Part shown: piece after piece, positions 4,262 to 45,096 of the stretch | How the letters are laid out: the number at the start of each line of letters is the position of its first letter | Position numbering within the stretch: position 1 is the stretch's first letter | Assembly (NCBI GenBank): GCA_016782225.1 | Contig: JADDOW010000117.1 | Location: forward strand, 1-53,275 | Direction: 5' to 3' | Length of the DNA stretch: 53,275 nucleotides | Source: Nitrososphaeraceae archaeon | Lineage (GTDB): Archaea > Thermoproteota > Nitrososphaeria > Nitrososphaerales > Nitrososphaeraceae | Program-made: the position numbers and the translations under genes | The notes under the pieces: model-generated | The model's input: the letters and a program-made list of their open reading frames with translations, nothing else | Told to the model about the DNA's origin: nothing | Databases searched by the model: none

Positions 4262-4411
4262 ATGATTTCATGCATACAACTCAAGAAAACCAATAATAAG
4301 TGTATGGAAAGCACAAAACAATTCATTAGCCATATGATGCAAATATTTGAGGAGAAGTCTCATAAGAAATTTATTCATGCCTCCTACTCACGATCATACT
4401 TATTTTCATAA
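4262..4411 (+). CDS. candidate 49-residue small protein
   Basis: ATG at 4262 to TAA at 4409. The sequence has Cys, His and Met-rich helical character (ESTKQFISHMMQIFEEKSHK) and could be a genuine small gene in line with the two upstream ones. No family recognised and no clear promoter, so it is only a candidate. Confidence 0.3.
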   Translation: MISCIQLKKTNNKCMESTKQFISHMMQIFEEKSHKKFIHASYSRSYLFS

Positions 4412-4741
4412 TAATTTTTAGCAAAAATTTTTTTAGAATTTTCTTCCGCTTAGACCATCGACAATTATTAGAAAGGATTCGGCAGGTTTTATGTTTGGAA
4501 AACCAAATTGTTAACAAAAAATAGGCAATTTAGATCCAAAACAAAATCAACAGGTTAACAAATTTGCTAGCATAACATAAACTGACAATAGGGAAAAGCG
4601 GCAGATTTGTAAACAAACCCAGATTTTTGTTAACACGACTGTTTTCAATGCTAACATTTTAAACAGAGTCTTTATCATATGAAAAAGGAAAGGAAATTCA
4701 TTTCTATTGATACTAGTTTAATATCGAATTTTGAATTTGTT

Positions 4742-5355: not shown

Positions 5356-5392
5356 CAGATTTCTAGAATAGAAAATACAGAGGAATATTGCC

Positions 5393-5605
5393 CTACAACC
5401 AAAAATTTGTAAAGATCGAGAGGTATATTTGCAATGAATTCTTTTTTTTTGTTCTCTCTCGACTAATTCCGTCTATAGGAAGAAACTCATTTAGATCACT
5501 AAAGCGGTTGTTAAAATGCTCTGTCCACCTGTTTTCTTTATCCAAATAATCTTGTTTATAGATAATAAAAAGTTTCATAGAACGGGTTTTTATGAGTAAC
5601 AACAA
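5393..5605 (-). CDS. hypothetical protein (uncertain)
   Basis: Up to 70 residues; an internal Met at residue 10 (MKLFIIYKQDYLDKENRWTE) is the likelier start. The sequence has a beta-strand start and a charged middle (RWTEHFNNRFSDLNEFLPID) that looks protein-like, but the C-terminus (TNFWL) looks like run-on, so it may be a 5' fragment of a lost gene. No family recognised. Confidence 0.3.
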   Translation of the reverse strand: MLLLIKTRSMKLFIIYKQDYLDKENRWTEHFNNRFSDLNEFLPIDGISRERTKKKNSLQIYLSIFTNFWL

Positions 5606-6065
5606 TAAAACAAAATAATCAGTTTTGACCTTGTAATGTGGATTTTAGATTGTTTAGCTTTAATATATATATTGTTTTATCCTCTTGTTAGTATCTTTAT
5701 TTTTGTAGGATCTGAAAATCCACTTAATTTGATTTATTTTATTTCTATGATTGTAGAAAAAAATCACAAATCATTTGTAGAGATTATGGATAATATTATG
5801 GATGTGGGTTGGAAATAGAATATCAAATATATCATTGACAGATTTTATTTTGTTGTAAATCGAATAATGAGTTTGTTTTACCATATTAAAATATAAAAAC
5901 CTCAGTATTTAGGGAACAATATTGTACGGTTATTAGAATAACCCCCCTTAATTTAATGAGAATAACAATATGTTTAGATATTGTTGTATAAAATAATCAA
6001 TCACAGTATATCATAAAATTTTTTATAGGATCTCCAACATATTGTATGTACTGAAATCAAATCAT
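5606..6065. other. intergenic, no supported gene
   Basis: AT-rich spacer between two minus-strand units. A 60-codon plus-strand frame at 5636-5818 is hydrophobic and unrecognised, probably chance. T-rich runs downstream of 6066 could serve as terminator for the gene on the right. Confidence 0.35.
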
Positions 6066-7262
6066 CTAACCAAAAGTAAATGTGTAGGCCTGAAATCCTT
6101 TTCCCTTGACATCGATTGTAAGCGAATGTGTTCCATCATATGATTGATGATTTGCAATATTGTACAATCGCGGACCATCGATTAAAAATTGAGACTCATT
6201 AACAGTGTCTACTCCTTTGGAACTGTTCGATAACAAAGAATTATTTTCATATACTGTTCCTTGACCTAGACCTCCTGCTACCAAGTTTACAGATTTTGCA
6301 GAATATGTCAATACAATCTTGCCAAACTCGCTTTGTAATTCCATATTGTCAGGATTGTTTTTCCATTCCCCTTCTAAATATATCGCATTAGGTTTAATGC
6401 TGGAATTGGAAGAAATGGCATATTCCATAACTTGTCCTGGCTGATAACCTTCTGGATTTCCTAATGACAAATGTTTGGATTCATAACCAAAATATAATTC
6501 GGGGGTTTTTATTTTTGAAAAGTCCACCGGTTGTGCAAGAAAACTGCTAATGTTATTAGAGTTTTCTAGAATTTTATTCGGGTATGATGTTGTATCGAGT
6601 TCTAGATTCTCTACACCCATTTTGGAGTTTCTTTCAGACAAAAGTGATTGAATTGTCATTTCTGTTTGATTATAGTCCCCTTCACCGATCTTATCGTATC
6701 TTATATAGCCTTGATCATCAACAAGGTACATTCTTGGCCAGTAATTGTTCTCATATGAATTCCAGGTCTTATAATCGTTATCTTGTATGATTGGATACTC
6801 TATACCGTATCTTTTTGCTGCATCCTCCACATTACCAATATCTTTTTCAAATTCAAATTCTGGCGTATGTACTCCAACTATCACTAAACCGTTATCTGAA
6901 TATTTTGTATTCCAGTCAATAAGATATGGAAGAGTTCTCAGAGAATTAATACAACTATAAGTCCAAAAATTGACAAGCACCACTTTTCCTTTTAGATTAT
7001 CTATTGTTATAGGCTGTTGACTGTTCTTGATGTTTAAGGTTCCTCCAGTACTTTCAAATTCAGGTGCCACTATAAATTGTGATTTATCAACTATTTTTTC
7101 ATCGCCGGATTCTGAAATCAATTTAAACTTTTGAGCACTTTTGCTATCGGATTCGATATTGGATATACTGAAAGATGGGTTTGTAAAATAAGGTATAAAA
7201 CCGAAAGTTATTGTGACTGTTAATGCAACTACAATCATTAAAGAAACAACCCCGTATCTCAT
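6066..7262 (-). CDS. membrane-anchored TlpA/DipZ-like thioredoxin-fold protein with CxxS site
   Basis: 398 residues: one N-terminal membrane anchor (about 5-25), a TlpA/DipZ-like thioredoxin domain (about 65-205) and a C-terminal beta-rich domain (about 250-398) like that of mycobacterial DipZ (EWKNNPDNMEL, TIDVKGKGFQAYTF). Family members normally have WTYTCINC; here the site is WTYSCINS, with Cys104 but Ser107 (codon TCT, one base from TGT). The cis-Pro region (NYWPRMYLVD) and VGVHTPEFEFEKD are present. The protein faces outward. It could be a monothiol isomerase- or peroxidase-like protein rather than a dithiol reductase; this is inference. It stands alone with a long spacer upstream. Confidence 0.88.
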   Translation of the reverse strand: MRYGVVSLMIVVALTVTITFGFIPYFTNPSFSISNIESDSKSAQKFKLISESGDEKIVDKSQFIVAPEFESTGGTLNIKNSQQPITIDNLKGKVVLVNFWTYSCINSLRTLPYLIDWNTKYSDNGLVIVGVHTPEFEFEKDIGNVEDAAKRYGIEYPIIQDNDYKTWNSYENNYWPRMYLVDDQGYIRYDKIGEGDYNQTEMTIQSLLSERNSKMGVENLELDTTSYPNKILENSNNISSFLAQPVDFSKIKTPELYFGYESKHLSLGNPEGYQPGQVMEYAISSNSSIKPNAIYLEGEWKNNPDNMELQSEFGKIVLTYSAKSVNLVAGGLGQGTVYENNSLLSNSSKGVDTVNESQFLIDGPRLYNIANHQSYDGTHSLTIDVKGKGFQAYTFTFG

Positions 7263-8390
7263 TTATGATTAGTTTTATTGTTTAATTGTTATTATCTGTT
7301 TCTTAGGGTAATAGAATCTGTTATTAAATTATTATCAATGATGGAAATAGGTTGTTGCAGAATTAGTCGATGAAACCGTTATACTAGTTGGCTATGAACC
7401 AGCATGTTTTTCCAATGGATCGCATATCATGTTCGTATTTGATTCTGTGCAGAAACTGGATATCGCTTGATAAAACAGTATAATAATCTTTAAGAGGTTC
7501 TTCTTAATTATGTGCCATAAAAATTAAAACTCGAAAAAACTTTTGTACACCTAATCTATTCTGTTCATTACTAAAGTCAATAACCCAAGTCGTAGATATA
7601 CATTATACGTTTTTCTAAATGAAGCGAGTATTAATCTTACTCATTTTTGTGCCTGTATATAGTATAATATTCAATTAATTATGCATAAATAAATTCAACT
7701 TATTTGTAATTTTAAGTATAGCAGCAGCAACAGCATCTTTGTTTGGAGGAAGGCATAACTAATGTATGATGAAGGTGTTCTGTTTCTGATATTCATACAA
7801 GAAATAGGGCATCTTCAATCTATAGATTTATCGCCAAGTGAACAGAGCCATAATCCATTATTAGAAGTATTATATCTAATGATTTTTGATCTAGTTATTT
7901 CCTTCATTCAACAATAAATTATTGTATTCATATCTCACTAAAACATATTCTTACATTGTTTTATTCATTTTCATCTTTTGGATACATAATCATTAATACA
8001 TTATATCCAATGGTCAACATTTTTGTGAAATGCTTTTGATTAGGGGATGGATGTTTTACATCTTTAAGATGAATATACAGATTTTTACTTGAAGTCATTA
8101 ATAATCATGCTAACCACTTTATGTTTATTACAAAAAAGTGCGTAATACATAGCTAATAGAAGAATCTTAATAGACACATATTTTTCTTCATAATATATCG
8201 TATTTTATAATCAATTCAATATTTTATGTATATTGTTATGGTGCGAAAAGCATTTGAAAATATAATTACCAGTTATTAGTAACACGTTTAAAATAAAACT
8301 TATAATATTAAACCCTTACAACTGTAAAACCATAATCCAAACAATTCTGGAAATGTTTTGTTATTGCCCTCTCATAGTTGGTTTCGGGAT
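7263..8390. other. 1.1 kb gene-free stretch
   Basis: Very AT-rich with scattered stops in all frames. A 51-codon frame at 7762-7917 (ATG, purine-rich ggaggaagg about 10 bases upstream) is the only candidate and is not recognised. Nothing else seen. Confidence 0.4.
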
Positions 8391-8972
8391 TCAATCGGAT
8401 AAGAGATTTTTTAATGGATCAATCATATTTGAGAATTCATTGTTTCTCTCAACCAACTTGTAGATAAACTTCTCAGACGGTAAAGAGCTGTGCTTTTTAA
8501 GATTGCACTTTCTGCAGGTTAAGACAAAGTTCCACAATTCATCTTCAAACACATATGACCGTGGAATAAAGTGATCAACATGAATCATTTGTTTTTCAGG
8601 GGATAATGTGTTATTGCAGTAGAGACACGTATCAAAATGCTTTAACATTGTTAGTTTAAAACTTTCCAAAGAGCCCCTGTAACGTTCACTGCGTTCTATT
8701 TTGGATATAAGCATGGGTAAACCAAGGTTTATTTTCTCAAGGAATTTTGCCCATTCGAATATGATTGCTTTGGATAAGAGTGAATGATTTTCCCTAAAGA
8801 ATTTGAGTGCTATTGAAAATAAAATTGTCATACTCATATTAAACAGTGAGACAAACAATCTTGAACAGGTATTTGAGAAAAAAATATTCCAGTATATTTT
8901 TAAATTAAAAAGCATTTTAATGATACTGAACCAAAAAACAAAACATTCAACAACAAGGCAATGATTTTTCAA
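8391..8972 (-). CDS. HNH endonuclease domain protein
   Basis: The C-terminal third is a zinc-bound HNH nuclease: CLYC (116-119), HVDHFIPRS (His131, Asp133, His134), LWNFVLTC (Asn148) and CRKCNLKKH (153-161). The first ~60 residues are hydrophobic and Cys-rich and may be run-on from spacer; the true start may be one of the internal Met codons (residues 46-48 or 87). Such standalone HNH proteins act as nicking or restriction nucleases or as remnants of mobile elements; no partner gene is adjacent. Confidence 0.8.
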   Translation of the reverse strand: MKNHCLVVECFVFWFSIIKMLFNLKIYWNIFFSNTCSRLFVSLFNMSMTILFSIALKFFRENHSLLSKAIIFEWAKFLEKINLGLPMLISKIERSERYRGSLESFKLTMLKHFDTCLYCNNTLSPEKQMIHVDHFIPRSYVFEDELWNFVLTCRKCNLKKHSSLPSEKFIYKLVERNNEFSNMIDPLKNLLSD

Positions 8973-9100
8973 ATATTATTTATTCTGAATTGCATGTGTT
9001 TCAAAGTATAAAAGAATTTATTTAAAAATCAAAGTTAGATTTAGAAATACAAAAGAGATTAATTTTAGATTTAGAGACTTTAAGAAACTATGATATCTAT

Positions 9101-9520
9101 ATGATAAGCCTTATCTTAAATAATAAAAAAAATCTAACAGATATTTTAAATAAAATAGATATTGCAACGTTGCAAAAATATGTTGCTGGCAGCTTATTGG
9201 CATTTAATTGTATAAGTAATTATATAAAAAATAATTATGATGATAAACAGAAATTATTTCAATTAATAAAATTACTTGAATACCATCTAGAACCCCTAAA
9301 AACATTCATCAGTTCTATTGAAATATTGATGGAAGAGTCTTTTGGGTCATATATACCTATAGAAGGGAACATTGGAATTGTTAACTCTTCGAGTTTTCAA
9401 ATAGATTTGAATAAGATGAAAATAGGACAGAAATATTTACTTAATTATAAAACGACACAATTCTTAGTAAAAAAAACTGAGAATTCAGATTTATCTATTT
9501 CGGAAGTTATAAAAAAATAA
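9101..9520 (+). CDS. hypothetical protein, first gene of a coupled pair
   Basis: 139 residues, Lys/Asn/Ile-rich, mostly helical (residues 8-90), ending in a short beta region (IGQKYLLNYKTTQFLVKKTE). No family recognised. Its TAA overlaps the ATG of the next frame (TAATG at 9518-9522), so the two were translationally coupled. A polar composition throughout and lack of signal peptide suggest a cytoplasmic protein. Confidence 0.6.
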   Translation: MISLILNNKKNLTDILNKIDIATLQKYVAGSLLAFNCISNYIKNNYDDKQKLFQLIKLLEYHLEPLKTFISSIEILMEESFGSYIPIEGNIGIVNSSSFQIDLNKMKIGQKYLLNYKTTQFLVKKTENSDLSISEVIKK

Positions 9521-9849
9521 TGAATCCTCTACCATACTTTTCTTTTAATACAGATTTTGGATTTAGTTAGAAAGAGTCAATAGAGGAATTCGATAGCAAG
9601 AATTTTTTACCATGTACTAATAAGATTGAATCAATTGGACGAATAAAACCTAGAAAATTTCTAATCAAATGTAATGGAAAAGGCGAATTTATTTAAGAGG
9701 AACTTATAAATTTTAATGATAAAATAAAAATATTATCTAAATTACGTGATAATGGAATTTTGTCAGAGGAGGAATTTGAAAAATATAAAGAAAAGGTTCT
9801 AAATAATATGAGTTATCCTTTTTCTCATTTTCATGCAGTTTCTTTTTAA
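9520..9849 (+). pseudogene. SHOCT-domain protein interrupted by two stops
   Basis: Starting at the ATG that overlaps the upstream stop, one frame runs 109 codons to TAA at 9847-9849 with no frameshift. It is interrupted by TAG (9568-9570, codon 17) and TAA (9694-9696, codon 59). The C-terminal part reads KLRDNGILSEEEFEKYKEKV, a clear SHOCT motif (short C-terminal oligomerisation helix pair). The unbroken frame and coupling indicate a recently lost second gene of a two-gene unit. Confidence 0.6.
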
Positions 9850-9974
9850 TCCTTTTTTCCCATTCTTCCTGCGTTAGTTTGAATATTCAAATCCATTGCC
9901 AATAAGCGTCCATATTTGTATGAGAGATAGAATAGCCTAATATTTGGTCTGATATTATATCACCAGATTCGAAA

Positions 9975-10805
9975 ATGTACCGACCGCAAAACGTTACCGA
10001 GACAAATCGACTCCATATTTGGGCCGCAGAAAATAGCTTTAGATTTAATACAACCCATCTATTACCAAGATCTAGTATAACCATCAAAAGAAAGAATCAG
10101 TCCAATATGACTAATGACGAAAAGGAATATTTCCTAAATTCCATTCAGACTCTAATTAGTTCCGGCGACTATGGCAAACACGTTTCATATCATGGTAACC
10201 ATAATCACAGAATGCATAGCTCCCATGGAGAAATAGGGAAGACGAGGTTTTTACCATGGCATAGAATTTATTTATTTGAGCTTGAGCAAATGCTTCAAGC
10301 ATTCGAACAAGATACATTTATCCCTTACTGGGACTGGACAACCGACAGAGACATTCCAGAATGGCTTGTCAATTTTACTCCGACTGTGATAGTTGACAAT
10401 CAACCAAGAGTAGTAAGACGAAGCCCTCATAGAAGCCCTAATACACCTAATCTTCCACCAGAAGGAGATGTAAATATGGTCATGAGTTTAAATTCATATG
10501 GTTCCTTTACCTCGGGTTTGGAAGGGGGGATCTTTGGAGCAGGCGGGCTCCTTCAAACCCAAACTCAAATGCATAACGAAGTACATGGATGGGTTGGAGG
10601 TATTATGGGCAATATCCGGTATTCTCCAACTGATGTATTGTTTTGGCTGCATCATGCAAATTGTGACAGGATATGGGCTCAATGGCAAAAGGAGCACCCT
10701 AGCGAAATACCCGGACTTTCTGGCACGGATTCCATCTTAGATCCTTGGACCTATACCGAAGAAGAGACGCTGGATACTTCAAGTTTGGGGTATATATATG
10801 ATTGA
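9975..10805 (+). CDS. tyrosinase (type-3 copper phenol oxidase)
   Basis: 276 residues with both copper sites. CuA: His73 (SYHGNH), His84 (MHSSHG) and His96 in FLPWHRIYLFELE. CuB: His200 and His204 (MHNEVHGWVGG) and His226/227 in DVLFWLHHANCDRIWAQWQ. The PYWDWTTD stretch is also typical. The enzyme class hydroxylates monophenols and/or oxidises catechols to quinones with O2. There is no signal peptide and no C-terminal lid domain, as in short bacterial tyrosinases. Homology seems to begin before Met45, so the start at 9975 is acceptable but not certain. No caddie protein or copper chaperone lies beside it. Confidence 0.9.
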   Translation: MYRPQNVTETNRLHIWAAENSFRFNTTHLLPRSSITIKRKNQSNMTNDEKEYFLNSIQTLISSGDYGKHVSYHGNHNHRMHSSHGEIGKTRFLPWHRIYLFELEQMLQAFEQDTFIPYWDWTTDRDIPEWLVNFTPTVIVDNQPRVVRRSPHRSPNTPNLPPEGDVNMVMSLNSYGSFTSGLEGGIFGAGGLLQTQTQMHNEVHGWVGGIMGNIRYSPTDVLFWLHHANCDRIWAQWQKEHPSEIPGLSGTDSILDPWTYTEEETLDTSSLGYIYD

Positions 10806-16305: not shown

Positions 16306-16985
16306 ATGCAGAGATATTGTACCACATCAGGGAAAGGGCATTTAAGCATTATAATTGAGTTGGATTCAAAGTTTCACACACAAAAAAAATAACTCATTAC
16401 AAGAATTGTATATTCTTTCATTGTTATGTGCATAAAATAATATTATTTAATTTATAGTCTTGTTGTGTTAGAATACTATCAACATTGTTTTATAGAAATT
16501 GATAAAAAAAGAGTAATTAATTCACTGGCATTGTCCAAAACAAGAACCAACTATAACAGGAAATATATAACTAGAATATCTATATTTGAAAATCTATTAT
16601 CAGCTAAAAATATTTCAGCATATTCGCTTGCCATTAAAAATTATTAAGTTCTAGTTTTAAAGAAAAAGGTGATCGTATGATTTAGTATGTTATCTTTTAT
16701 CAAAATTATGAATACTTGTTCACATAATCAACATTAAATAAAAAAAACCCGGATTTAAGTTAAGTCAACATCGTAAATTATGCAATACACTGACTATTTT
16801 CTCAAAAACCTTTGATAATTGATACACTCGGATCGCTGAGTTATATTCTTGTTTATTACCATTTAATTCAAATTTGATATGGGTGTGTAAAATATAAGTA
16901 TCAGGATATCCATATTCCTTAATTTAAGACCATATGAAGTAGAGTTCTATATCTTTATATTATTTTAACGTCACTGATTGAATAT
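16306..16985. other. intergenic, no supported gene
   Basis: AT-rich. A 60-codon frame at 16465-16647 (TTG start, Lys/Asn/Ile-rich) is unrecognised and probably not real. Confidence 0.4.
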
Positions 16986-17339
16986 TTATCTTACTCCAGT
17001 ATCTACAAAAAGATCAAGTTTAGTATTTTTATCTTCTTCCACAACGAATTTGTAAGTCTTGATATCAGATGAGAATTTTCCTGCTTTTGTGTATATTAAA
17101 TATTTTCCCGGTGTTAAAAGTGTTTTAAAGTTTTCGTTGAGATCTGTTTTAATTTTAGTAACTGGAATCTTATTCTGGTTTTCATCATTCTTGTCCAAGT
17201 AAATATTAATCTCATAATTAGGATAAGGACCACTACATGGAAGAACTCGATAATAAAAAGAATCAGGGTTGCATGGTATCCCTCTAAAAAACACCTGCCC
17301 TTCCAAATTCCCCATAATGTCTGAAGACCCATTCAACAT
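16986..17339 (-). CDS. carboxypeptidase-regulatory-like (transthyretin-fold) domain protein
   Basis: 117 residues. The layout GNLEGQVFFRGIPCN, PCSGPYPNYEINIYLDK, TKIKTDLNENFKTLLTPGKY, YKFVVEED matches small archaeal and bacterial Ig-like domains of the carboxypeptidase regulatory type: G-x-EG-V start, PC-x-PY, KTD-x-N-F, L-x-PGKY. Two Cys may pair. No signal peptide is visible in this frame, so the true N-terminus may be longer or lost. It would act outside the cell; partner unknown. Confidence 0.65.
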   Translation of the reverse strand: MLNGSSDIMGNLEGQVFFRGIPCNPDSFYYRVLPCSGPYPNYEINIYLDKNDENQNKIPVTKIKTDLNENFKTLLTPGKYLIYTKAGKFSSDIKTYKFVVEEDKNTKLDLFVDTGVR

Positions 17340-17429
17340 TAAATAACCTGTCGTATTTTGATTTTTAGCATTTACGCATTTATCTCTTTATCAATGACAA
17401 TGCAAGAAAAAGTTTTATTTTTTGTTTTA

Positions 17430-18011
17430 TTATTTACCATATCCGCCATAAATGAATAAATTACTTTTTTTTAGCCCTATTGCATATTCTGTTTGGATGC
17501 CATATGATAGATACGTAATCTTGTTTGGTAAAGAGAAGGAGGTGCTGTCAGTTACCATGGAAGCAGATGGCTGGGATGGTGGTGGTGTAGAAATTCCAAA
17601 AACAAAAAGCCTTGGCTCTATATAATTAGTACTAGAACCACCTTGAAGAGTATAACCTGTTGCAGTCCAAAGACTCTCTGTTGCATTATAGTTTCTTACT
17701 CTTAAATAATCCCCCCATTCATTTTCTGTCGGAACATGAGTTCCATTTATCAAAGGTGTCAAGTCCCAAGAACTAAGGTTGCCGTTATCGTTTACAAGAT
17801 TTATAGATGCACCAATGCTAGGCCCTATTTCACCTCCACCAAATGTTGCAATTAGTCCTAATTGTCCTCTTTCATTGGGTGACGCGTATGCGTATAACAC
17901 ACCAAAATTAGGATTCCACAGTAAAGGCCTTCTCTGATAGGTCATATTGTCTGCATCAAATACTGCTGCATTTATGTATGGCCATGGAAACTCGGATTTG
18001 TATTTTTTGTA
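17430..18011 (-). pseudogene. 5'-truncated secreted protein fragment
   Basis: From 17945 (first ATG) the frame encodes 171 residues: WNPNFGVLYAYASPNERGQL, GLIATFGGGEIGPSIGAS, WGDYLRVRNYN, YIEPRLFVFG. The frame is already coding-like before this ATG (SEFPWPYINAAVFDADN) back to a TGA at 18012-18014 with no start codon, so the N-terminal part, presumably with a signal peptide, is missing. The beta-rich, Gly-rich composition suggests the C-terminus of a beta-propeller or lectin-like extracellular protein. The C-terminal tail after PPPSQPSA is low complexity. Confidence 0.55.
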
Positions 18012-18190
18012 TCAGTTTACAAACTGGAGATGGGTTGTTTTAGTAGAATGGATAACGCCTTTGCAACTTTAAGAGATCGGTTGTATGGAGTTTGACCTTG
18101 TATCCCATATTGACCTATTCTTCTCCGGGACCGTTGTGTTATATACAAATAGTAAAGATAAGAATTTAAGCGCAGGATACACTCATTATC

Positions 18191-18478
18191 ATGGATAAAA
18201 TATCCAACTCTGAGGATGACAATGGAGCCCTTCACAATGTTGAAGGTTTTGTATTAGATAGGTTATCATCCAAGTATGACTCAAGAGGCGACACTTCAGT
18301 AAGTATCGGAGAATTGATGGAATCCATAGACACTACAATGTCTCCCCTATTGGATCAAGCCATTGAGGACTTGATCGCTCAAAGTCTGATCCATTCTCCT
18401 GATGGCGAACATTACCAAATTACTCCGGATGGGATTAATGAGATAGAAAACAGAAAGAGAGAGGCAATACCACTTTAG
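18191..18478 (+). CDS. small winged-helix-like acidic protein
   Basis: 95 residues, ATG start with TATA-like ttatatac about 50 bases upstream. After an acidic N-terminus the order LDRLSS, SIGELMESIDTTMSPLLDQA, IEDLIAQSLIHSPDGEHYQI, TPDGINEIE matches a helix-helix-helix-wing plan ending in the Y-x-ITPDG-x-x-EIE pattern typical of winged-helix proteins. It could be a small DNA-binding regulator. No neighbour is clearly co-transcribed. Confidence 0.65.
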   Translation: MDKISNSEDDNGALHNVEGFVLDRLSSKYDSRGDTSVSIGELMESIDTTMSPLLDQAIEDLIAQSLIHSPDGEHYQITPDGINEIENRKREAIPL

Positions 18479-18743
18479 CTGCAAAAAACTATTTTTATAC
18501 AACCAATCTCAAAAGTTAAGGCAAACAGGTAGAATATACCAATAGGAATTCGGAATATCGGAGACAAACAAAATTATTCCCTATTTTATTTTGGCGGACA
18601 TTAAGGGAAACTTGCACTATTTGTCCTAAAAGATGCGAATCAATCAAGATTAAAGGCAAGCAACTACTCACATAAAGCAGACATTGCCTAAAATTTGTAT
18701 TTACGGACTAAACATATGCCTTGATTAAAATATTCTAATTTTT

Positions 18744-33474: not shown

Positions 33475-33909
33475 ATGAATAAAGTCATTTTAAAATCCAA
33501 TATGATTATATTTTATATATTTATACTCATGGGGCTGTATAGCATCTTTCTAGTTGCTACTGCAAATGCTACACCTTACAATGTTACAAATCATGATAAT
33601 AGAGGAAATTTTACATTGGAAGCTTTTACAGATGAAGGGTTTATAGGAAATAGTACAATAATAAATAAAAATACCCCATCTTTACAAGGACAATTTCATG
33701 ATTCCATTAGTAGTTTAAGAATAACCTTTGAACAAAATCAAAGTAATGGATACATGTTAGAAATTTGTGAGCACATAAGTTTTGCCGGCGATTGTATAAT
33801 TGTTGGAGATGGTGAATACGATATTGAATCTCTTGGTTCGCTCAATGACAAAATATCATCAATAAGATATCTATCTCCATCTTCACTTAAACTAAAAGGT
33901 TATTCATAA
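33475..33909 (+). CDS. secreted beta/gamma-crystallin domain protein
   Basis: 144 residues. Signal peptide 1-32 ending ATANA. The mature part has two Greek-key motifs: FTLEAFTDEGFIGNSTII with HDSISSLRI (75-82), and YMLEICEHISFAGDCIIVG with NDKISSIRYL (124-133). Both carry the (N/D)(N/D)xxSS calcium-binding pattern, the first with His in place of the first acidic residue. A Cys pair (98, 107) may form a disulfide. Such crystallins bind calcium and are known in a few archaea; an extracellular structural or Ca-sensing role is likely. Confidence 0.82.
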   Translation: MNKVILKSNMIIFYIFILMGLYSIFLVATANATPYNVTNHDNRGNFTLEAFTDEGFIGNSTIINKNTPSLQGQFHDSISSLRITFEQNQSNGYMLEICEHISFAGDCIIVGDGEYDIESLGSLNDKISSIRYLSPSSLKLKGYS

Positions 33910-34138: not shown

Positions 34139-35131
34139 ATGGTATCAGAGAAGCAAATTATGATTATATCTTTCTATGTGGCCATTTTCTTATTTACTTC
34201 TATTTGGACTAATGATGCTGAAGGAGTTGATGTGTCCTCATGGGAAGTAGGCGAAGAAATGCCTACATATAGAACCGAGATTGCCGCAGATTTGTTGGAT
34301 AATAGAATCTATGTACTTGGAGGGGCAGACTACCAAAAGGATGGAGTAATAGATACTGTGGAAGTGTATGACCCAGAAAAAAACACATGGACCACAGCCG
34401 CGCCATTACCAATTCCGATAGACCATACCTCAGCAGTCGCATATAATGGCAAGCTATACCTTGTAGGAGGATTTTTAGAAAACAAGATATCTACAGATAA
34501 GCTTTTCATTTATGATCCTAATGAAAACAAATGGACTGAAGGAAATCCATTGCCATCACCCAGAGGAGCATTAACTGCAGAGGTCATAAATGGTACAATC
34601 TATGCTATAGGCGGAGTCAATAGGGATCATCAACCTGTTAATACTAATGAAGCTTACAATGTTAAAACCAATACCTGGACTGCAAGAGAGCCAATACCTG
34701 GACCAAAGCACCATGTTGCATCGGCAGTAGTGGATGGGAAATTATATGTACTTGGAGGAAGATTATTTGGCAATGGTGAACCTTCCGAGATTAATGAATC
34801 GTTAACGAATTTTGATGACAACTGGAGATATGATCCAGAAAAAAATAAGTGGATGCCTTTGGAATCCATGTCTATTAGAAGAAGTGGATTTACTGCCACA
34901 TCCCTAAATGATCAAATTTATGTATTTGGGGGTCAAGGCACAGAAGGATCCTATAATAGTGTTGAGAGATATGACCCAATAACGAATAAATGGTATGGAG
35001 AGCCTGCAATGCCTACAGAACGTTCAGGATCTGCATCTGTTGCCTATAAGGATAGAATCTATGTATTTGGGGGTCAGCACAAGGGCCTAGAGGCATTAAA
35101 TGTAAATGAAATTTTCATTCAAGGTAAATGA
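34139..35131 (+). CDS. secreted kelch-repeat protein
   Basis: 330 residues: a signal peptide (about 1-29) and six kelch blades with the GG and Tyr/Trp pattern, for example IYVLGGADYQ, VEVYDPEKNTWTTAAPLP, LYLVGGFLEN, IYAIGGVNRD, LYVLGGRLFG, IYVFGGQGTE, IYVFGGQHKG. It would fold as a beta-propeller outside the cell. It lies tail-to-tail with a paralogue on the opposite strand, with 164 bp between stops that include an alternating (ta) run. Kelch propellers bind carbohydrate or protein; no catalytic residues are apparent. Confidence 0.9.
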   Translation: MVSEKQIMIISFYVAIFLFTSIWTNDAEGVDVSSWEVGEEMPTYRTEIAADLLDNRIYVLGGADYQKDGVIDTVEVYDPEKNTWTTAAPLPIPIDHTSAVAYNGKLYLVGGFLENKISTDKLFIYDPNENKWTEGNPLPSPRGALTAEVINGTIYAIGGVNRDHQPVNTNEAYNVKTNTWTAREPIPGPKHHVASAVVDGKLYVLGGRLFGNGEPSEINESLTNFDDNWRYDPEKNKWMPLESMSIRRSGFTATSLNDQIYVFGGQGTEGSYNSVERYDPITNKWYGEPAMPTERSGSASVAYKDRIYVFGGQHKGLEALNVNEIFIQGK

Positions 35132-35295: not shown

Positions 35296-36393
35296 TTAAT
35301 TGTATCCGCCAAATGCATCATAAATGTTTGTTTTATTATTGCCAACGTGAAAGATCTCGTTAGCATCAGTTACTGTTAACCCGGGCTGAGGTCCTCCACC
35401 AATAACAAAAATCTGTCCATCATATGCTGATACTCCTAATCCATGACGTGATGTGGGCATAGGATATTGATGCGTCCAACTATCCTTTGTGGCATCATAT
35501 CGCTCATTGTTATTAAAAGTCCCATTATTTTGTTCGCCTCCAAATACATAAATAAAATCGTTTATTGATGAAGATGCAATACCGCTTCTTTTTGTGGGCA
35601 TAGGCTCTAGATCGCTTGTCCATTTATCGGCAGATGGATTGTATTTTTCTACAATGTCTACATTGTCCAAAGAACCAGTTATCCTGCCACCGATTACATA
35701 AATGCTGTTATTTACTGTAGCTGATGCAGCATGATGCCTAGATGTAGGCATAGGTAATTTAGACATCCATAGATTGTTTTTTGGATCATATGATTCGTTT
35801 GTATTGACTGGATCATTATTATCGCCTCCTATTACATATAGCGTCCCGTTTACAAAATTCGCATTTGGAGACCCCCTTGCAGTAGGCATAGGATTGCCCT
35901 CAATCCAGTCGTTATCCGTTGGATCATAAATAAATAACTTATCGCTTGCCTCCCATTCTCCAAAATATCCACCAGCTACATATATTTTGCCTTGATCGGA
36001 TACAGCTGATGCAGCATGATGAAGCGGTATTGGTAAAGACTTGACGTTTGTCATCCAAGTGTCATTCTTTGTGTTATATGCCTCTACAATATCCGTAGGT
36101 TTTCCCTCAGAATTAAATCCCCCAATTACATATATTCTGTCTCCTAAGTTAACCGCAGTTACTTCTGTACGTGGAGTAGGCATAGGTGCGCCTTTTGACC
36201 AGAGTTCTTTAATCATCTGCCCTTCGGTGTAAGATATTTGCACTGGCAATGTAGGATTTAAGGAACTGAGCAAAGAGACGGATAACATAGAAATCAACAT
36301 TAGTCTTTTATGGACATCTAACATAAAATTCCCTAAATTTGTATATAATATAAAGACTCTGTTGATCCTCAAATTTGATAAATAAAGATTCAT
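35296..36393 (-). CDS. secreted kelch-repeat protein (paralogue)
   Basis: 365 residues as an open frame; Met24 (36324; MLDVHKRLMLISMLSVSLLS) is the likelier start since a signal peptide follows directly. Six blades: IYVIGGFNSE, VEAYNTKNDTWMTN, IYVAGGYFGE, LYVIGGDNND, IYVIGGRITG, IYVFGGEQNN, IFVIGGGPQPG. Linkers with PMPT-x-R are very regular. It shares blade spacing and phrasing (LFIYDPTDNDWIEGNPMPTA) with the 34139-35131 gene, so the pair arose by duplication and inversion. Confidence 0.9.
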   Translation of the reverse strand: MNLYLSNLRINRVFILYTNLGNFMLDVHKRLMLISMLSVSLLSSLNPTLPVQISYTEGQMIKELWSKGAPMPTPRTEVTAVNLGDRIYVIGGFNSEGKPTDIVEAYNTKNDTWMTNVKSLPIPLHHAASAVSDQGKIYVAGGYFGEWEASDKLFIYDPTDNDWIEGNPMPTARGSPNANFVNGTLYVIGGDNNDPVNTNESYDPKNNLWMSKLPMPTSRHHAASATVNNSIYVIGGRITGSLDNVDIVEKYNPSADKWTSDLEPMPTKRSGIASSSINDFIYVFGGEQNNGTFNNNERYDATKDSWTHQYPMPTSRHGLGVSAYDGQIFVIGGGPQPGLTVTDANEIFHVGNNKTNIYDAFGGYN

Positions 36394-37516: not shown

Positions 37517-39244
37517 TTGAGTTCCATGGTTTGTTCGTTTAAGCATGCGTTCCTAAAAAGGAATAATTTGTATTTTCCAATCATTGCTGTTATTATATCA
37601 GCATCCATACATCTTTGGAATCCAATTGGATTTCCAAGTATCCATATTGATGAAGGAATTTACATGCTTCGGGCTATGCATATATTAGATGGCTTTGGAT
37701 TAAAAGATGATGCATCAAGTTATGATCATCCTTTTTTTGGATCCCTATTTCTTGCAAGTTTTTTAAGTTTGATAAATTACCATGCCTTAATTTCTATTGA
37801 TATACATGACACACAATCATTCGAATTGCTTTACTTTTACCCTAGAATTTTAATGGGGATTCTCGCAATTTTGGACACCTTTCTTATTTATATGATAGCA
37901 AAAATAAGATATAATAACAATGTGGGATTTATTGCATCCATTTTATTTGCAATAATGCCATTGACATGGCCTATTCGTAGAATATATCTTGAATCGATTT
38001 TACTTCCTTTTTTACTGTCTTCAATCCTATTTTCAGTTTCTATTTATTCCTATAACAATAGATTGAAAAAATTAAACTTTTTGAATAATGCAGAAAATAA
38101 ATATTACAAGTTAACTAAAAAATTCATCAATGAAAATATCCTTATTTTGGTTTCAGGTATATGCCTCGGAATAACCATTTTCACAAAAATTCCAACGATA
38201 ACTATGATTCCCGTGATAGTGTTTCTTACCTATCGATATAGCAAAAATATTAGGCATGTTGTGATATTGCTGATACCGATTATATTAATCCCGCTTATTT
38301 GGCCTATATATGCAGCTTACAATGGAGAATTTGATAAATGGTTAAATGGAGTAGTATGGCAGATAAGTCGAAGCAATAACAACTCAATTTTAGACTTTAT
38401 TAGCGAATCCTTTCTAGTTGATCCCGTACTATTAACATTTGGTTTAGGTGGAACTGCTTTTGCAATAGTTAGAAAGGATTTCTTTTTAATGTCATGGATT
38501 ATTCCAATGGTAATCTTTTTTGGTTTTGTTATTGATTATGTAAATTGGTTTCATTGGATTCCGATTCTAGGGGCACTTTCAATTTCATCCGCAGTATTAA
38601 TTGAAAACATACTAAAAAAGATTACAAAACAAAGAACGCTCTTGGTAGGGTTAATGTTGTCTATAGTGTTGTTTGGGGCATTATCCACAATTGTTGTTGT
38701 ATCAACAAATGTATCTTCTTTTCAATTCCAATCTATGACTTATGTAGGTAAAAAATTAGATAATCTTACAAATTCCAATTATCTAAACAAAACGTATCCT
38801 TCTATAACTGATAACGTCTTACAGTATAACCATATGGAAGAAAACGACTTGATAAAAGATGATAATAACAACCCTTACAAAGATACTGCTGATCCGGTAA
38901 CAATTATTTCAAGTCCCATCTATTCATGGGTTTTCAAATATGCATATAACTATAACAACACATTTTCAAGTTACACTGAACAACAAGACATCAAAACCAA
39001 TAAGGTTATCCTTATAGTCGACAGATATTTTAGAGATTTTCTATTACAGAATGCTGTCAATAACAGTATTAAAAATGACACCATGACGGACTCATCCACT
39101 GACATTTTCGAAACCTATGCAAAATCCCATAAAGAAGTTTATTTTAGGGGAACAGCAATGGACTATAATCTAAATCAATATCCCTTCACAATTATGAAGT
39201 ACAATTTTGGTGGTAGCCCAATAGAAATTAGAACAAATTATTAG
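37517..39244 (+). CDS. GT-C family membrane glycosyltransferase
   Basis: 575 residues with about 10-12 membrane helices (from residue 19 to about 405), then a C-terminal outward soluble part (about 410-575). The first loop has the GT-C acidic pair, SIHIDEGIYMLRAMHI (Asp45, Glu46), followed by SYDHPFFGS, as in dolichyl-phosphate-mannose protein mannosyltransferase and ArnT-like enzymes. It would transfer a sugar from a polyprenyl-phosphate carrier on the outer face. TTG at 37517 or ATG at 37526 starts it. It is homologous to the N-terminal half of the 42106-45096 gene and lies 278 bp upstream of the Dpm1-GtrA gene on the same strand. Confidence 0.85.
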   Translation: MSSMVCSFKHAFLKRNNLYFPIIAVIISASIHLWNPIGFPSIHIDEGIYMLRAMHILDGFGLKDDASSYDHPFFGSLFLASFLSLINYHALISIDIHDTQSFELLYFYPRILMGILAILDTFLIYMIAKIRYNNNVGFIASILFAIMPLTWPIRRIYLESILLPFLLSSILFSVSIYSYNNRLKKLNFLNNAENKYYKLTKKFINENILILVSGICLGITIFTKIPTITMIPVIVFLTYRYSKNIRHVVILLIPIILIPLIWPIYAAYNGEFDKWLNGVVWQISRSNNNSILDFISESFLVDPVLLTFGLGGTAFAIVRKDFFLMSWIIPMVIFFGFVIDYVNWFHWIPILGALSISSAVLIENILKKITKQRTLLVGLMLSIVLFGALSTIVVVSTNVSSFQFQSMTYVGKKLDNLTNSNYLNKTYPSITDNVLQYNHMEENDLIKDDNNNPYKDTADPVTIISSPIYSWVFKYAYNYNNTFSSYTEQQDIKTNKVILIVDRYFRDFLLQNAVNNSIKNDTMTDSSTDIFETYAKSHKEVYFRGTAMDYNLNQYPFTIMKYNFGGSPIEIRTNY

Positions 39245-39522: not shown

Positions 39523-40785
39523 ATGTTAAAGTTTAACAACATAAAACATCCCGATACCCCGGATCAGAAATTCCTATCAATAATTATCCCCACTTTTAAT
39601 GAATCTATGAACATTATTAATTTGATTAATCACATTCAAAGACATGTTCCGAAATCCATTAGTATTGAAATTATTATTGTAGATGATAATTCCCCCGATG
39701 GGACAGGCACACTGGTAGAGCATTACATAAACAAAAAAAGAGAATCAACAAATCCAGAATGGAATAATCATTCAGATGAACTTGACAAAATGATTTCTAA
39801 TTCGTCTATAAAAATAATTCACCGAGAAAAGAAAACAGGCCTTATATCAGCAATACTGCATGGAATTAGTTCTTGCAGTGGACAAAATATCCTCATAATG
39901 GATGCAGATTTTTCACATCCACCTGAACTGATAGAAAATATGATAAAAGAGCTTGAGCGAGATACCGATTGCATCATAATTGGTTCAAGGTATATTAATG
40001 GAGGCTCGATTATAGGAATGCCATTTAAGAGATTCATGCTTAGTTTGGGTGCAACATTCATAGCAAGATATGGCCTTTCACTAAGAAATGTACACGATCC
40101 CATGTCTGGTTTTTTTGCATTTCCAAGACATATACTTGAAGGTGTAAAATTTAATACTAGTGGATATAAAATATTGCTTGAAATTCTAATAAAAAAGGGA
40201 AATTCGACAAGAATAAAAGAAATACCATATACCTTTAAAGATAGAAAGTACGGCCAAAGCAAACTTAGCTTTTCGGTTATCCTTGATTATATCAAGGCCA
40301 TCTGGAAACTCTATATACATGGCAGAAAGTCCAGAAAGCACATTCTCAAAGCAGAACAAAGAAACTCCGCTTTATTCATATCACAAGCTGCCAGATTCTA
40401 TTCTGTAGGTGCTAGTGGATTTTTAGTGAATTATTTGTTGTCACTATTTCTCTCAAACGGTACTCTTTCTAGCATGAGCTATTTGCAATCTACTTCCATT
40501 GGAATTGCTTTATCTGTCACCACAAACTTTTTACTCAACAAGTTCTGGACTTTTGAAGATAAAAATACATCAAGGCGACATTTTATAAAGCAATATGGAT
40601 CGTTTCTTGGATTTAGTTCAATTGGAATTTTAATTCAGTTATTATTTGTATATATATTTACAGAATCAGACATGAAATACGATGTGTCTCTTTTACTTGC
40701 AGTACTTGTGGCGTCAGCTAGCAATTTCCTCCTCAATAAAAAAGTGACATTTAAAGAAAAAATATGGAATAAAAACAACATATAA
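39523..40785 (+). CDS. polyprenyl-phosphate sugar synthase fused to GtrA (Dpm1-GtrA)
   Basis: 420 residues. GT2 domain (17-250): LSIIIPTFNESMNIINLINH, IIVDDNSPDGTG, DADFSHPPELI (DXD-like metal site), GSRYINGGSI, VHDPMSGFFAFPR, KDRKYGQSKLS. GtrA domain (about 285-415): AARFYSVGASGFLVNYLLSL, FLLNKFWTFED, NFLLNKKVTFKE, four membrane helices. It makes polyprenyl-phosphate mannose or glucose and the GtrA part probably flips or anchors the product. It sits between two GT-C genes that would use such a donor. Confidence 0.9.
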   Translation: MLKFNNIKHPDTPDQKFLSIIIPTFNESMNIINLINHIQRHVPKSISIEIIIVDDNSPDGTGTLVEHYINKKRESTNPEWNNHSDELDKMISNSSIKIIHREKKTGLISAILHGISSCSGQNILIMDADFSHPPELIENMIKELERDTDCIIIGSRYINGGSIIGMPFKRFMLSLGATFIARYGLSLRNVHDPMSGFFAFPRHILEGVKFNTSGYKILLEILIKKGNSTRIKEIPYTFKDRKYGQSKLSFSVILDYIKAIWKLYIHGRKSRKHILKAEQRNSALFISQAARFYSVGASGFLVNYLLSLFLSNGTLSSMSYLQSTSIGIALSVTTNFLLNKFWTFEDKNTSRRHFIKQYGSFLGFSSIGILIQLLFVYIFTESDMKYDVSLLLAVLVASASNFLLNKKVTFKEKIWNKNNI

Positions 40786-41018: not shown

Positions 41019-41777
41019 TCAGTTACATTGCTGATAACCGTATTTGCTAATATCATTGCAAACAATAACTTGAGTAATATTGTATAGCGAATTATCTAAG
41101 TTGATGTCCAATGGATTTATAGTTTTTAAAATAATACTTTCCAATTTAGGGTTAATTTCAGTTTTATCCTCATTCTGATTTCCATCAAACAAACCATAAT
41201 ATATGCTAGACTCCGGATTTGATGATTTGATCTCTGCAATCATAAAACTAACACTATTATTTGGTAATTCAATAATTACAGTAGAGTTTATCGGTATATC
41301 TTGATATAACATTGCTTCTTTTAATAAATCCTCAAAATTATTAAAATTCCCTATTTGTCCAACCAGAAGATTACTTATTGTTAAACTATGATTTTGGGAC
41401 TGATGTTCATAATTGGGTATAAATTTTATAAATTGATGCCACTCATTTAACTCAAAGGGTAGCAATTCGTCATTAAGATTTCTCGTATATTCAATTGTAT
41501 TATTATAACTGATTGCAGTTAGCGCTAAATATCCTTTGTCTAGCAACTCGGGAATAACCGATATATTGTTTGGGATTTCTAAATTGTGTTGCTGTTTATT
41601 AGTCTTAGATTGATTTTCATCCAAATTACTAGTATTACTAATATTGTTATTAGATGCAATAGCTACTGCATTCGTTGTGTTAATTGATATATTGGTTACT
41701 GTGATGGTTATAGCAACAATAATCAAAAATATTGTAATCGTAAAATTAATACGATTACTGTTTGGATAAGCTAACAC
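41019..41777 (-). CDS. secreted hypothetical protein, Asn-rich
   Basis: 252 residues; GTG start, signal peptide to about residue 40, an Asn/Ser/Gln-rich linker (residues 41-70), then a mixed alpha/beta domain (VIPELLDKGYLALTAISYNN, SVSFMIAEIKSS) with a Cys pair only at the C-terminus. Many N-x-S/T sequons, in keeping with a surface glycoprotein. No family recognised. Divergent from the GT-C fusion gene. Confidence 0.65.
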   Translation of the reverse strand: MLAYPNSNRINFTITIFLIIVAITITVTNISINTTNAVAIASNNNISNTSNLDENQSKTNKQQHNLEIPNNISVIPELLDKGYLALTAISYNNTIEYTRNLNDELLPFELNEWHQFIKFIPNYEHQSQNHSLTISNLLVGQIGNFNNFEDLLKEAMLYQDIPINSTVIIELPNNSVSFMIAEIKSSNPESSIYYGLFDGNQNEDKTEINPKLESIILKTINPLDINLDNSLYNITQVIVCNDISKYGYQQCN

Positions 41778-42105: not shown

Positions 42106-45096
42106 TTGATAAATCTTAATAACCCGCACAAGAAAAAATTTTATTATGCAATTATGATATTATTGCCCGTTACATTATCGACTTTTACCCATATGTGGAA
42201 TCCAACAGGGTTTCCAATGGTATACATAGACGAAAATCATTACATGAGGCGAGCTATCCAGGTTATTGAAGGACAAGGTCCACAAGAGTCAATAAGAGTT
42301 TACGATCATCCCTATGACCATCCATATTTTGGACAGATTTTTTTGGCATTTCTATTAAAGTCAACGGGATATTTGAGTATCTTAAATCTATCTGTAATTG
42401 ATTCATCGTCCATCGAATCTGTTTACATGCTTCCTCGATTGTTAATGGGTGCGCTTGCAGCAATAAACACCATTCTTGTTTTTAAGATTGGCGAAATTTG
42501 GCATAGTAGAAACTTGGGTTTTGTCTCGTCAATGTTATTTGCTGTAATGCCACTCACGTGGATGTTAAAAATGATTTTATTGGATACGCTTTTGCTACCG
42601 TTCCTACTTAGCTCAATCCTTCTGGCTTTTTATTCATCCAAAATAAAGCGAGCAAATGCAAATCTGTCTGTAATAATTCTTTCAGGCATTACACTTGGCA
42701 TTGCGATATTCACTAAAGTTCCAGCCATTGCATTTATTCCATTAGTTGGTTACCTTGTTTATAATTACAATAAAAACCTAAAGCTATTGGCATTTTGGGT
42801 CATTCCAGTCCTTTTAATACCCTTAATATGGCCTGTATCCATAGGTCTCTCAGGGCATACGGAAGATTGGCTTAATGGAATTTCATACCAAGTAGAACGA
42901 GGTGAAAGAAATTTCCTCGATACTATTTCATTATTATACCAAGCTGACCCTGTGTTATGGTCATTAGGAATTGTGGGAGGCATAATATCATTGGTTATGA
43001 AAAAGGATTTTGTTTTTGTATTGTGGACAGTGCCATACATACTCTTTATATATTATATAGGGGGAATTGTAAAATTTTTCCATTTCATAGAACTGTTACC
43101 CATATTTTCAATAACAGCAGGGTTTATAATAATATCAATTGTAAACAACCTTGGTATAATTTTGAGGAGATTTAACAATGATAAAATTTCAAAGATAGTT
43201 TCATATGCAATAATATCGGGAGTAGTACTATTTGGCCTATTTAGTTCTGTTTTGATTTTACAAATAAATACTAACGAGTCTTTTTTTGAACTTTCTGCTT
43301 TTATATCCAATCAACTCGCCAAAGAGGATGAAATTAATGGAGAGATTACTATGATTGGGCAACATTGGATTAGAAGCTTTTCATGGATTCCGATGCATCT
43401 CCATGATAATGTACACTACATCAAAGATGTATTTCCTGAACGATATATGAGAGAACCTGTGAAAACTGAAAATGTTTTATTGATTGTCGATAAACAGTTA
43501 AAACACGAGATATTTGATCATTCAGTACAAGGCCAACATCTTGATGAAATTCGAAATTTATACCATGAGTCAGAGAGAGTAGGGTTATTCTCAGATAATA
43601 TAACTGGAAAGTATAACACTGATCAATATCCTTTTACAAACATAAAGGAAAATAACGGATTTGGATTAATCGAGGTCAGATCAAATTACGATAATAAAGC
43701 GTATGCATTGTCATTTAATAAATCTGTTTTAGCTAACAACACAAATAATTCGTCTTCACAGCAAAAAATGCCCACTGTGTTTGATCCCAATCTTAAGGTT
43801 GAGCTTATCGCTAGCGGGCTAAAACATCCAACTAGCATGGCATTTTTAGGAAATGATGATCTATTAGTTCTTGAAAAAAATAATGGTACTGTAAAAAGAA
43901 TTGTTAATGGGAATGTGGTTGATAAACCCATACTGGACTTGAATGTAGCCAATAAAATAGAAAGGGGATTATTGGGAATTGCAGTGTCCAATCAGGCACC
44001 AAAAGATAATAAAACAAATGTTTATCTTTATTTTACTGAATCAACCAATGATGGAAATGATGTATGCCAGGGCGCGACAATATGCGATGAGGAAACAAAT
44101 CCCCTAGGAAATAGGTTATACAAATTTGAGTGGATGGATAATAAATTAGTTAATCCACAATTGATTTTAGATTTGCCTGCTGGCCCAGGTGCTGATCATA
44201 ATGGTGGTGTAGTGGAGATTGGACCAGATAACAACCTATATATTCTTATTGGTGATGGCGATAGCTGCTGGGAAGAGGAATATTGTACAGGTTCATTTGA
44301 AGATAGCCCTGCTAATTCTGAATCATCCAATGTGCCTACAGGTGCTCCACCTGTAGGGAGAGGCGGCATTTTGAGAATTACTACCGATGGTGAACCTATT
44401 CTTTATGGGGAAAAAAATACAACGGGGATTTTAGCTGATCATAGCCCATTGAATAAATATTTTGCGTATGGAATACGAAATGGATTTGGGATTGCATTTG
44501 ATCCTTTGACAAACAAACTGTGGGATACAGAAAATGGTCCTGGCTATGGTGATGAGATTAATTTGGTGGAGCCTGGGTTTAACAGTGGCTGGCTAAAGGT
44601 CCAAGGATGGTGGCCTGTAACTATTGCAGAACCATTGCCCGCACAAAGAGGATATTTTGGCGAAGATAGGATAGTAAAGCCAAGTAATTTGGAAACATTT
44701 GCAGAAAAGGGCCGATATAGCCATCCCGAATTCACTTGGAACATGTCAGTAGGTGTTACTAGTATTGAATTTCTAACTAGCAATAAATTGGGTAAACAAT
44801 ATGAAAGCGATCTTTTTGTTGCCGATTACAATAATGACTATTTGTACAATTTTGATTTGACCAAAGATAGATCAAAATTAGCACTTAAAGGGAATCTAAC
44901 AGATAAAATTGCAAATGATAACAATGAACTTCATGATATAGTATTCGGACAAGGATTTGGAATTATCACTGATATTGAAGAGGGACCTGATGGATATCTC
45001 TATCTTTTATCCCATATTAATGGTAACGTTTATAGAATAATTCCAAAATCAAGCGAACAATTGGTCATGGTAGATAAACAACTCTATTCTCAATAA
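42106..45096 (+). CDS. GT-C glycosyltransferase fused to PQQ-type sugar dehydrogenase propeller
   Basis: 996 residues; TTG start (an ATG at 42154 would lose the first 16). Residues 10 to about 410 are a GT-C enzyme with ~11 membrane helices and the acidic pair in FPMVYIDENHYMRRAIQVIE (Asp42, Glu43), clearly paralogous to the 37517 gene. A soluble part (about 410-545) and an Asn/Ser linker follow. Then comes a glucose/sorbosone dehydrogenase-type beta-propeller (about 563-990): KHPTSMAFLGNDDLLVLEKN, RGLLGIAVS, ADHNGGVVEIGPDNNLYILI (catalytic-His region), GGILRITTDGEP, ENGPGYGDEINLVEPGFNSG, GPDGYLYLLSH. The propeller faces outward. It may oxidise, bind or proofread the glycan that the membrane half builds; this is inference. 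Confidence 0.9.
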   Translation: MINLNNPHKKKFYYAIMILLPVTLSTFTHMWNPTGFPMVYIDENHYMRRAIQVIEGQGPQESIRVYDHPYDHPYFGQIFLAFLLKSTGYLSILNLSVIDSSSIESVYMLPRLLMGALAAINTILVFKIGEIWHSRNLGFVSSMLFAVMPLTWMLKMILLDTLLLPFLLSSILLAFYSSKIKRANANLSVIILSGITLGIAIFTKVPAIAFIPLVGYLVYNYNKNLKLLAFWVIPVLLIPLIWPVSIGLSGHTEDWLNGISYQVERGERNFLDTISLLYQADPVLWSLGIVGGIISLVMKKDFVFVLWTVPYILFIYYIGGIVKFFHFIELLPIFSITAGFIIISIVNNLGIILRRFNNDKISKIVSYAIISGVVLFGLFSSVLILQINTNESFFELSAFISNQLAKEDEINGEITMIGQHWIRSFSWIPMHLHDNVHYIKDVFPERYMREPVKTENVLLIVDKQLKHEIFDHSVQGQHLDEIRNLYHESERVGLFSDNITGKYNTDQYPFTNIKENNGFGLIEVRSNYDNKAYALSFNKSVLANNTNNSSSQQKMPTVFDPNLKVELIASGLKHPTSMAFLGNDDLLVLEKNNGTVKRIVNGNVVDKPILDLNVANKIERGLLGIAVSNQAPKDNKTNVYLYFTESTNDGNDVCQGATICDEETNPLGNRLYKFEWMDNKLVNPQLILDLPAGPGADHNGGVVEIGPDNNLYILIGDGDSCWEEEYCTGSFEDSPANSESSNVPTGAPPVGRGGILRITTDGEPILYGEKNTTGILADHSPLNKYFAYGIRNGFGIAFDPLTNKLWDTENGPGYGDEINLVEPGFNSGWLKVQGWWPVTIAEPLPAQRGYFGEDRIVKPSNLETFAEKGRYSHPEFTWNMSVGVTSIEFLTSNKLGKQYESDLFVADYNNDYLYNFDLTKDRSKLALKGNLTDKIANDNNELHDIVFGQGFGIITDIEEGPDGYLYLLSHINGNVYRIIPKSSEQLVMVDKQLYSQ

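Follow-up and report, generated by a model that had tools for sequence, protein, structure and literature searches.

A GT-C glycosyltransferase fused to a GSDH propeller in one genus of Nitrososphaeraceae, a candidate enzyme of surface-glycan assembly

Outward glycan-handling domains on GT-C glycosyltransferases have precedents in the carbohydrate-binding domains of the Emb arabinosyltransferases and the MIR domains of PMT; EmbA, EmbB and EmbC are GT-C enzymes in which such a domain lies at the C-terminus. Among the GSDH (glucose/sorbosone dehydrogenase) propellers, Lys377 and Arg408 of sGDH contact PQQ, while in the fungal AA12 enzymes PQQ is bound although Lys377 is missing, and an Arg conserved in the bacterial enzymes is retained (PMC6881789). 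Nitrosocosmicus has an enlarged GSDH family, with 9-17 copies reported (6 in N. arcticus), whose members were read as PQQ enzymes drawing electrons from environmental sugars (PMC6657660). Nitrosocosmicus has no S-layer and a glycocalyx may cover the cells (PMC11559005).

We analysed a stretch of 53,275 nucleotides (the window), contig JADDOW010000117.1 of a Nitrososphaeraceae archaeon (GCA_016782225.1). The reading frame at 42106-45096 (forward strand) starts with TTG and, as a preliminary description of this DNA had claimed, stays open across 996 codons. It joins a GT-C glycosyltransferase to a GSDH propeller, which is a new domain architecture built from two known superfamilies. We propose that the product works in surface-glycan assembly as an enzyme of two domains, in which the GT-C half would transfer a sugar and the propeller would act on the same glycan, most likely by oxidising it. 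We assign this reading a probability of roughly 0.5. The features of the fusion gene are as follows.

42106..45096, forward strand: fusion gene, GT-C glycosyltransferase and GSDH propeller, 996 codons, TTG start
42106..43275, forward strand: membrane part of the GT-C half (residues 1-390), predicted to have 11 helices and to run from an inner N-terminus to an outer C-terminus (model, topology)
42229..42234, forward strand: acidic pair Asp42-Glu43 of the first outward loop, which may form the catalytic and donor site; conserved to at least 90% across 36 homologues
43276..43710, forward strand: small mixed alpha/beta outward domain, residues 391-535, past the last membrane helix (alignment, model)
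43711..43770, forward strand: Asn/Ser/Thr-rich variable linker, residues about 536-555
43771..45060, forward strand: six-bladed GSDH propeller, residues 556-985 (Pfam, profile, fold)
44197..44199, forward strand: His698, equivalent of the catalytic His144 of sGDH (alignment)
44476..44481, forward strand: Arg791-Asn792, equivalents of Arg228-Asn229 of sGDH (alignment)
44533..44556, forward strand: Asn810-Gly-Pro loop and Asp816-Glu817, Ca-site loop region G247/P248/D252/E253 of sGDH (alignment)
44830..44832, forward strand: Asn909 in place of the PQQ-binding Lys377 (HMMER, alignment)
44962..44970, forward strand: Ile953 and Thr955 in place of the PQQ-binding Arg406 and Arg408 (HMMER, alignment)

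A domain search, which had been suggested along with the preliminary description, returned GSDH as the sole Pfam match of the 996-residue protein (residues 572-976, E = 1e-35). The GT-C half taken alone gave no Pfam match at the cut-off, but PMT_2 was matched by 27 and PMT by 17 of 36 aligned GT-C relatives, the window protein itself matching neither. The first full-length model was weak in the GT-C part (pLDDT 69, pTM 0.54). Therefore, we modelled this half alone with AlphaFold (pLDDT 86.4, pTM 0.89); the relative placement of the GT-C and propeller domains can be read from neither model. The GT-C model matched AglB, ArnT, Pmt4, PglB, ALG9 and ALG12 with a Foldseek probability of 1.00. By its modelled fold, the N-terminal half is a GT-C glycosyltransferase of the PMT/ArnT/AglB kind, and the Asp42-Glu43 pair named with the earlier assignment was confirmed, with at least 90% conservation across the 36 relatives. 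Also conserved among them were an HPYFGQ stretch and other positions; in the fusion this stretch reads DHPYFGQ and sits where the HPPLGK motif of PMT lies. Residues 391-535, the small alpha/beta domain, belong to the GT-C family proper according to the 36-sequence alignment and the model. One further GT-C homologue (L050, contig C118 of genome G046, frame 3297-5978, reverse strand) is fused to a right-handed beta-helix (PF13229/NosD) and has no propeller.

With the 11 helices taken from the model, we counted 12 Lys or Arg residues in the short inside loops and 5 in the short outside loops. The N-terminus is predicted to lie inside and the C-terminus outside the membrane. An outward position of the propeller would fit this topology and the charge bias. 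It would also fit four conserved cysteines of the propeller, which the fused copies share with part of their nearest relatives.

The propeller was identified by Pfam (GSDH, E = 1e-35 to 5e-37) and by Foldseek (3A9G, E = 3e-19), and it matched 3A9G, sGDH, 2ISM and 2G8S by fold and profile. When the propeller was aligned by MAFFT to sGDH and E. coli Asd, the catalytic and Ca positions fell on His698, Arg791, Asn792, Gly811, Pro812, Asp816 and Glu817. The equivalents of His144, R228, N229, G247, P248, D252 and E253 were retained in every aligned fused copy. In all of these copies the PQQ carboxylate clamp, K377, R406 and R408, was replaced by N, I/V and T (N909, I953 and T955 in the window), in an alignment whose sGDH row was entered by hand for residues 388-408 and taken from program output for the remainder. 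HMMER, which placed the residues independently, set the Lys of SLKRG and of ALKDK opposite Asn909, and sGDH Asp409 opposite Asp956, hence the preceding residue opposite Thr955. The R-x-R pair at 406/408 was found in five of five solved relatives, namely sGDH (where it lies in the hand-entered stretch), 2G8S, 3A9G, 2ISM and 3DAS. The preliminary description had spoken of a full PQQ-type propeller. The GSDH propeller was confirmed, with its ADHNGG and ENGPGYGDEINLVEPGFNSG motifs; the PQQ type was not, as K377, R406 and R408 are replaced and neither PqqC nor PqqE was found at the cut-off in the genus. Nor are the catalytic residues of the propeller absent as a whole, since His, Arg-Asn and the Ca loop are kept and the PQQ clamp is what has been replaced.

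A canonical propeller of the window genome (L001, G000:C101, 1450-2547, reverse strand) resembles the Pyrobaculum aldose dehydrogenase (E = 1.5e-58) and has Lys at all three clamp positions (K-x-K and Lys). Of the GSDH proteins examined in this genome, it alone shows this resemblance together with a full basic clamp, and because it keeps the clamp, the loss in the fusion is not general to the organism. In the same genome a 480-residue frame (L007, G000:C93) encodes a GSDH propeller in which the catalytic His and Arg align with Gly and Trp; judged by this alignment, it is probably non-catalytic.

We looked for PQQ synthesis genes and found no PqqC above the curated cut-off in 26 genomes and no PqqE above the curated cut-off in 17 genomes. 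The PqqE matches that were obtained, far below the cut-off, were generic radical-SAM proteins that also appeared in 14 of 14 control genomes. PqqD was rejected as a sign of PQQ synthesis, as its matches were mostly proteins of about 200 residues that almost all genomes of the family encode, whether they have the fusion or not. E. coli has Asd yet makes no PQQ, and by this analogy scavenging of PQQ is possible. The protein could be an ordinary PQQ aldose dehydrogenase that passes electrons from environmental sugars to respiration, with the GT-C half as a mere membrane anchor. The GSDH assignment and the role proposed for the expanded Nitrosocosmicus family (PMC6657660) agree with such an explanation, and AA12 enzymes do bind PQQ with partly different residues and without Lys377. 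However, they retain the bacterial-equivalent Arg, whereas K377, R406 and R408 are all replaced here. A donor-synthase operon in other genera (see below) also speaks against it. The GT-C half is under purifying selection and its DE motif is intact, which argues that it is not a mere anchor. We therefore consider this explanation improbable.

Three GSDH propellers, two of the window genome (L003, G000:C106; L004, G000:C5) and one of another g1 genome (L100, G009), carry a C-terminal plastocyanin-type cupredoxin and have lost the PQQ clamp. The cupredoxin was detected by Pfam in L003 and L100 (Copper-bind, 2e-9 and 6e-10) and by sequence motif in L004; the clamp positions of L003 and L100 are Asn, Gly and Thr. 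The fused protein itself has no cupredoxin, and a motif scan found no cupredoxin gene in the window. A cupredoxin on clamp-less paralogues argues that this propeller family may transfer electrons despite the altered PQQ site, either by modified PQQ binding or with another cofactor.

The same loss of the clamp, together with the failure to find PqqC (26 genomes) or PqqE (17 genomes) above curated cut-offs, would also suit a propeller that is not a redox enzyme at all. It might instead bind glycans in a Ca-dependent way, or serve as a scaffold, and so keep the acceptor at the GT-C active site, much as the carbohydrate-binding domains of Emb enzymes and the MIR domains of PMT do. The hedgehog-interacting protein, a GSDH-fold binder for which we know of no cofactor role, was among the structural matches, and the sister GT-C protein L050 bears a different outward domain, the beta-helix. 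Against a pure binding role, the catalytic His, Arg, Asn, Asp and Glu are invariant across the fused clade, and paralogues of the same family bear a cupredoxin. It is mainly for the latter reason that we rank oxidation above glycan binding alone, and a binding module is in our opinion a possible explanation, to be held tentatively. Given the rest of the mechanism, we regard redox chemistry of the propeller as about evenly balanced.

We wanted to see whether the fusion recurs in related genomes, as had been advised. It was read in nine further genomes of the genus, denoted g1, which makes ten with the window genome when damaged and cut copies are counted. Frames were intact and full-length in G014, G017, G010, G007, G018 and G005; G014 and its record JADDOQ010000039 showed 91% and 90% identity to the window fusion, and the G007 copy comes from a single-contig genome. 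The copy of G011 is cut by a contig end, that of G016 contains one in-frame TGA within the GT-C half, and that of G008 loses its frame in the propeller and reads as pieces 1-800, 784-936 and 929-994, with the frame shifting from one to the next. The full fusion was not found in G006, G009, G012, G013 and G015 of the same genus, nor in any other genus searched. The linker sequence varies between fused copies yet keeps the frame, and dN/dS values of 0.10-0.18 (GT-C part) and 0.035-0.115 (propeller) indicate strong purifying selection on both halves. A lost stop codon or an assembly artefact is therefore ruled out by the recurrence in independent genomes including G007, the varying linker and the low dN/dS. 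The arrangement is thus not one of two genes elsewhere and a fusion only in this assembly. We counted 13-22 GSDH matches per genome in four g1 genomes; since this fits the published expansion, g1 is probably Nitrosocosmicus.

In G008 (L043) the broken fusion lies at 7261-10236 (forward strand), and a partial duplicate at 16983-18653 lies on the opposite, reverse strand about 7 kb off. The second copy still encodes an undamaged propeller, preceded by what is left of the GT-C tail (residues 342-429), so a propeller can be kept when no entire GT-C half is attached to it.

Both neighbours that had been described upstream of the fusion were found in place, and a third gene lies between them and it.

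37517..39244, forward strand: GT-C paralogue without a propeller
39523..40785, forward strand: Dpm1-like GT2 with a GtrA domain, probable polyprenyl-phosphate-sugar donor synthase
41019..41777, reverse strand: 252-residue protein with an N-terminal hydrophobic stretch, of no known family

At the fusion loci with covered flanks, the Dpm1-GtrA gene and the GT-C paralogue adjoin the fusion, in two different orders. The 252-residue protein was present at g1 fusion loci with that flank covered, between or beside the GT-C genes, and nowhere else among the loci compared. Just upstream of the glycosyltransferase cluster, the window encodes two facing kelch-repeat propeller proteins (34139-35131, forward strand; 35296-36393, reverse strand). 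It also encodes a small beta/gamma-crystallin-domain protein (33475-33909, forward strand; Pfam 6.5e-8), which is unusual for an archaeon.

The GT-C family was present in 51 of 70 genomes and in 11 of the 12 genera of the family. Among 300 genomes drawn over the phylum, strong GT-C matches were confined to this order (families f1 and f9), and they were unfused in all but g1. Seven genomes of the genera g8 and g10 have the gene order Dpm1-like synthase, GT-C, propeller, all on the same strand; 68-92 bp separate Dpm1 from GT-C, and 66-176 bp lie between GT-C and the propeller. In g20, which belongs to another family and carries just 2-3 propellers per genome, the GT-C and propeller genes stand tail to tail and their open frames overlap slightly. 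A propeller lay within 500 bp at 11 and within 3 kb at 15 of 75 unfused GT-C genes, a count that omits the two GT-C paralogues adjoining the fusion itself. Fewer than two would be expected within 500 bp from densities of about 2-6 propellers per Mb, a rough estimate made for loci that are not independent. The operons and this pairing of neighbours support, independently of the fusion, joint work on a surface glycan.

In trees made for each half, the fused GT-C domains formed one clade (support 100) with the tandem proteins in other clades, and all fused propellers fell in one clade, together with one G008 copy derived from the fusion. Descent of the fusion from the operon pair of g8 and g10 is therefore unsupported, as fused and tandem proteins are separate in both trees. 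The two kinds of protein came to be paired, or paired again, on more than one occasion, and the simplest reading of the trees would be one fusion event in g1 and separate GT-C/propeller pairings elsewhere. The limitation of the fusion to one genus, and the lack of a sister relation between fused and tandem pairs, might also be expected if the two domains were functionally unrelated neighbours joined by chance. We consider this highly improbable, as the fusion has long been conserved and adjacency occurs independently in other genera and in another family. It may also be that the two are paired because both belong to one surface-glycan island, and not because they have a substrate in common.

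For the two-domain enzyme that we favour, the following course can be proposed, its first two steps being based on the established roles of Dpm1, GtrA and PMT-type proteins. The Dpm1-GtrA synthase would load a sugar onto polyprenyl phosphate and aid its passage to the outer face. On the outer side of the membrane, the GT-C half would then pass that sugar to a glycan or a protein as acceptor. The tethered propeller, on the same face, would act on the same glycan, most likely by GSDH-type oxidation with modified cofactor binding. We infer the action on the same glycan from the fusion and synteny; likewise, we infer the outward placement, the donor, the acceptor, the substrate shared by both domains and the redox chemistry. 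The preliminary description had envisaged a sugar-attaching enzyme with its own outward sugar-oxidising domain. Of this, a GT-C enzyme joined to a predicted outward propeller, with the synthase adjoining, is retained, and the sugar-oxidising character is not retained as stated.

In summary, these results tie at least one branch of the expanded GSDH family to glycan assembly instead. Judging from the fusion in one genus and the neighbouring genes in related genera, the "sugar dehydrogenases" in which these archaea abound may have the surface sugars of the cell itself, and not food sugars, as their substrates. As the loss of the clamp is common to the cupredoxin-fused paralogues, the cofactor of the whole family becomes a concrete, testable question. 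In the broadest version, one surface enzyme would add and then oxidise a sugar, using PQQ in a new way or another cofactor and passing electrons to cupredoxins, and the GSDH family of soil ammonia-oxidising archaea would consist of surface-glycan oxidases rather than catabolic enzymes; this we regard as doubtful.

Compared with known systems, the fusion resembles PMT (GT39) and ArnT (GT83) in the GT-C fold, the DE pair in the first outward loop and the outward domain, and the donor is presumably a polyprenyl-phosphate sugar from the Dpm1-like neighbour. It differs from them in lying below the Pfam cut-offs, in having no MIR domain and in its C-terminal GSDH propeller. With sGDH (1C9U), E. coli Asd (2G8S) and the Pyrobaculum aldose dehydrogenase (3A9G) it shares the six-bladed propeller and the equivalents of His144, Arg228-Asn229, Gly247-Pro248 and Asp252-Glu253. 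In contrast to these three, it has N909, I953 and T955 at the clamp, four extra conserved cysteines and a membrane-glycosyltransferase tether. The fungal AA12 pyranose dehydrogenases, which are PQQ-dependent, are likewise multidomain proteins with a GSDH-fold propeller that does without the Lys377 contact. However, they keep Arg621, a residue said to be conserved in the bacterial enzymes, and add His560, whereas the window protein has Ile953 and Thr955 there. The propeller-plastocyanin fusions L003, L004 and L100 belong to the same propeller family and show the same loss of the clamp, but their partner is a C-terminal cupredoxin and not an N-terminal GT-C domain. The C-terminal fold of EmbA, EmbB and EmbC is unrelated to the GSDH propeller, and a GSDH propeller as the outward domain of a GT-C enzyme is new.
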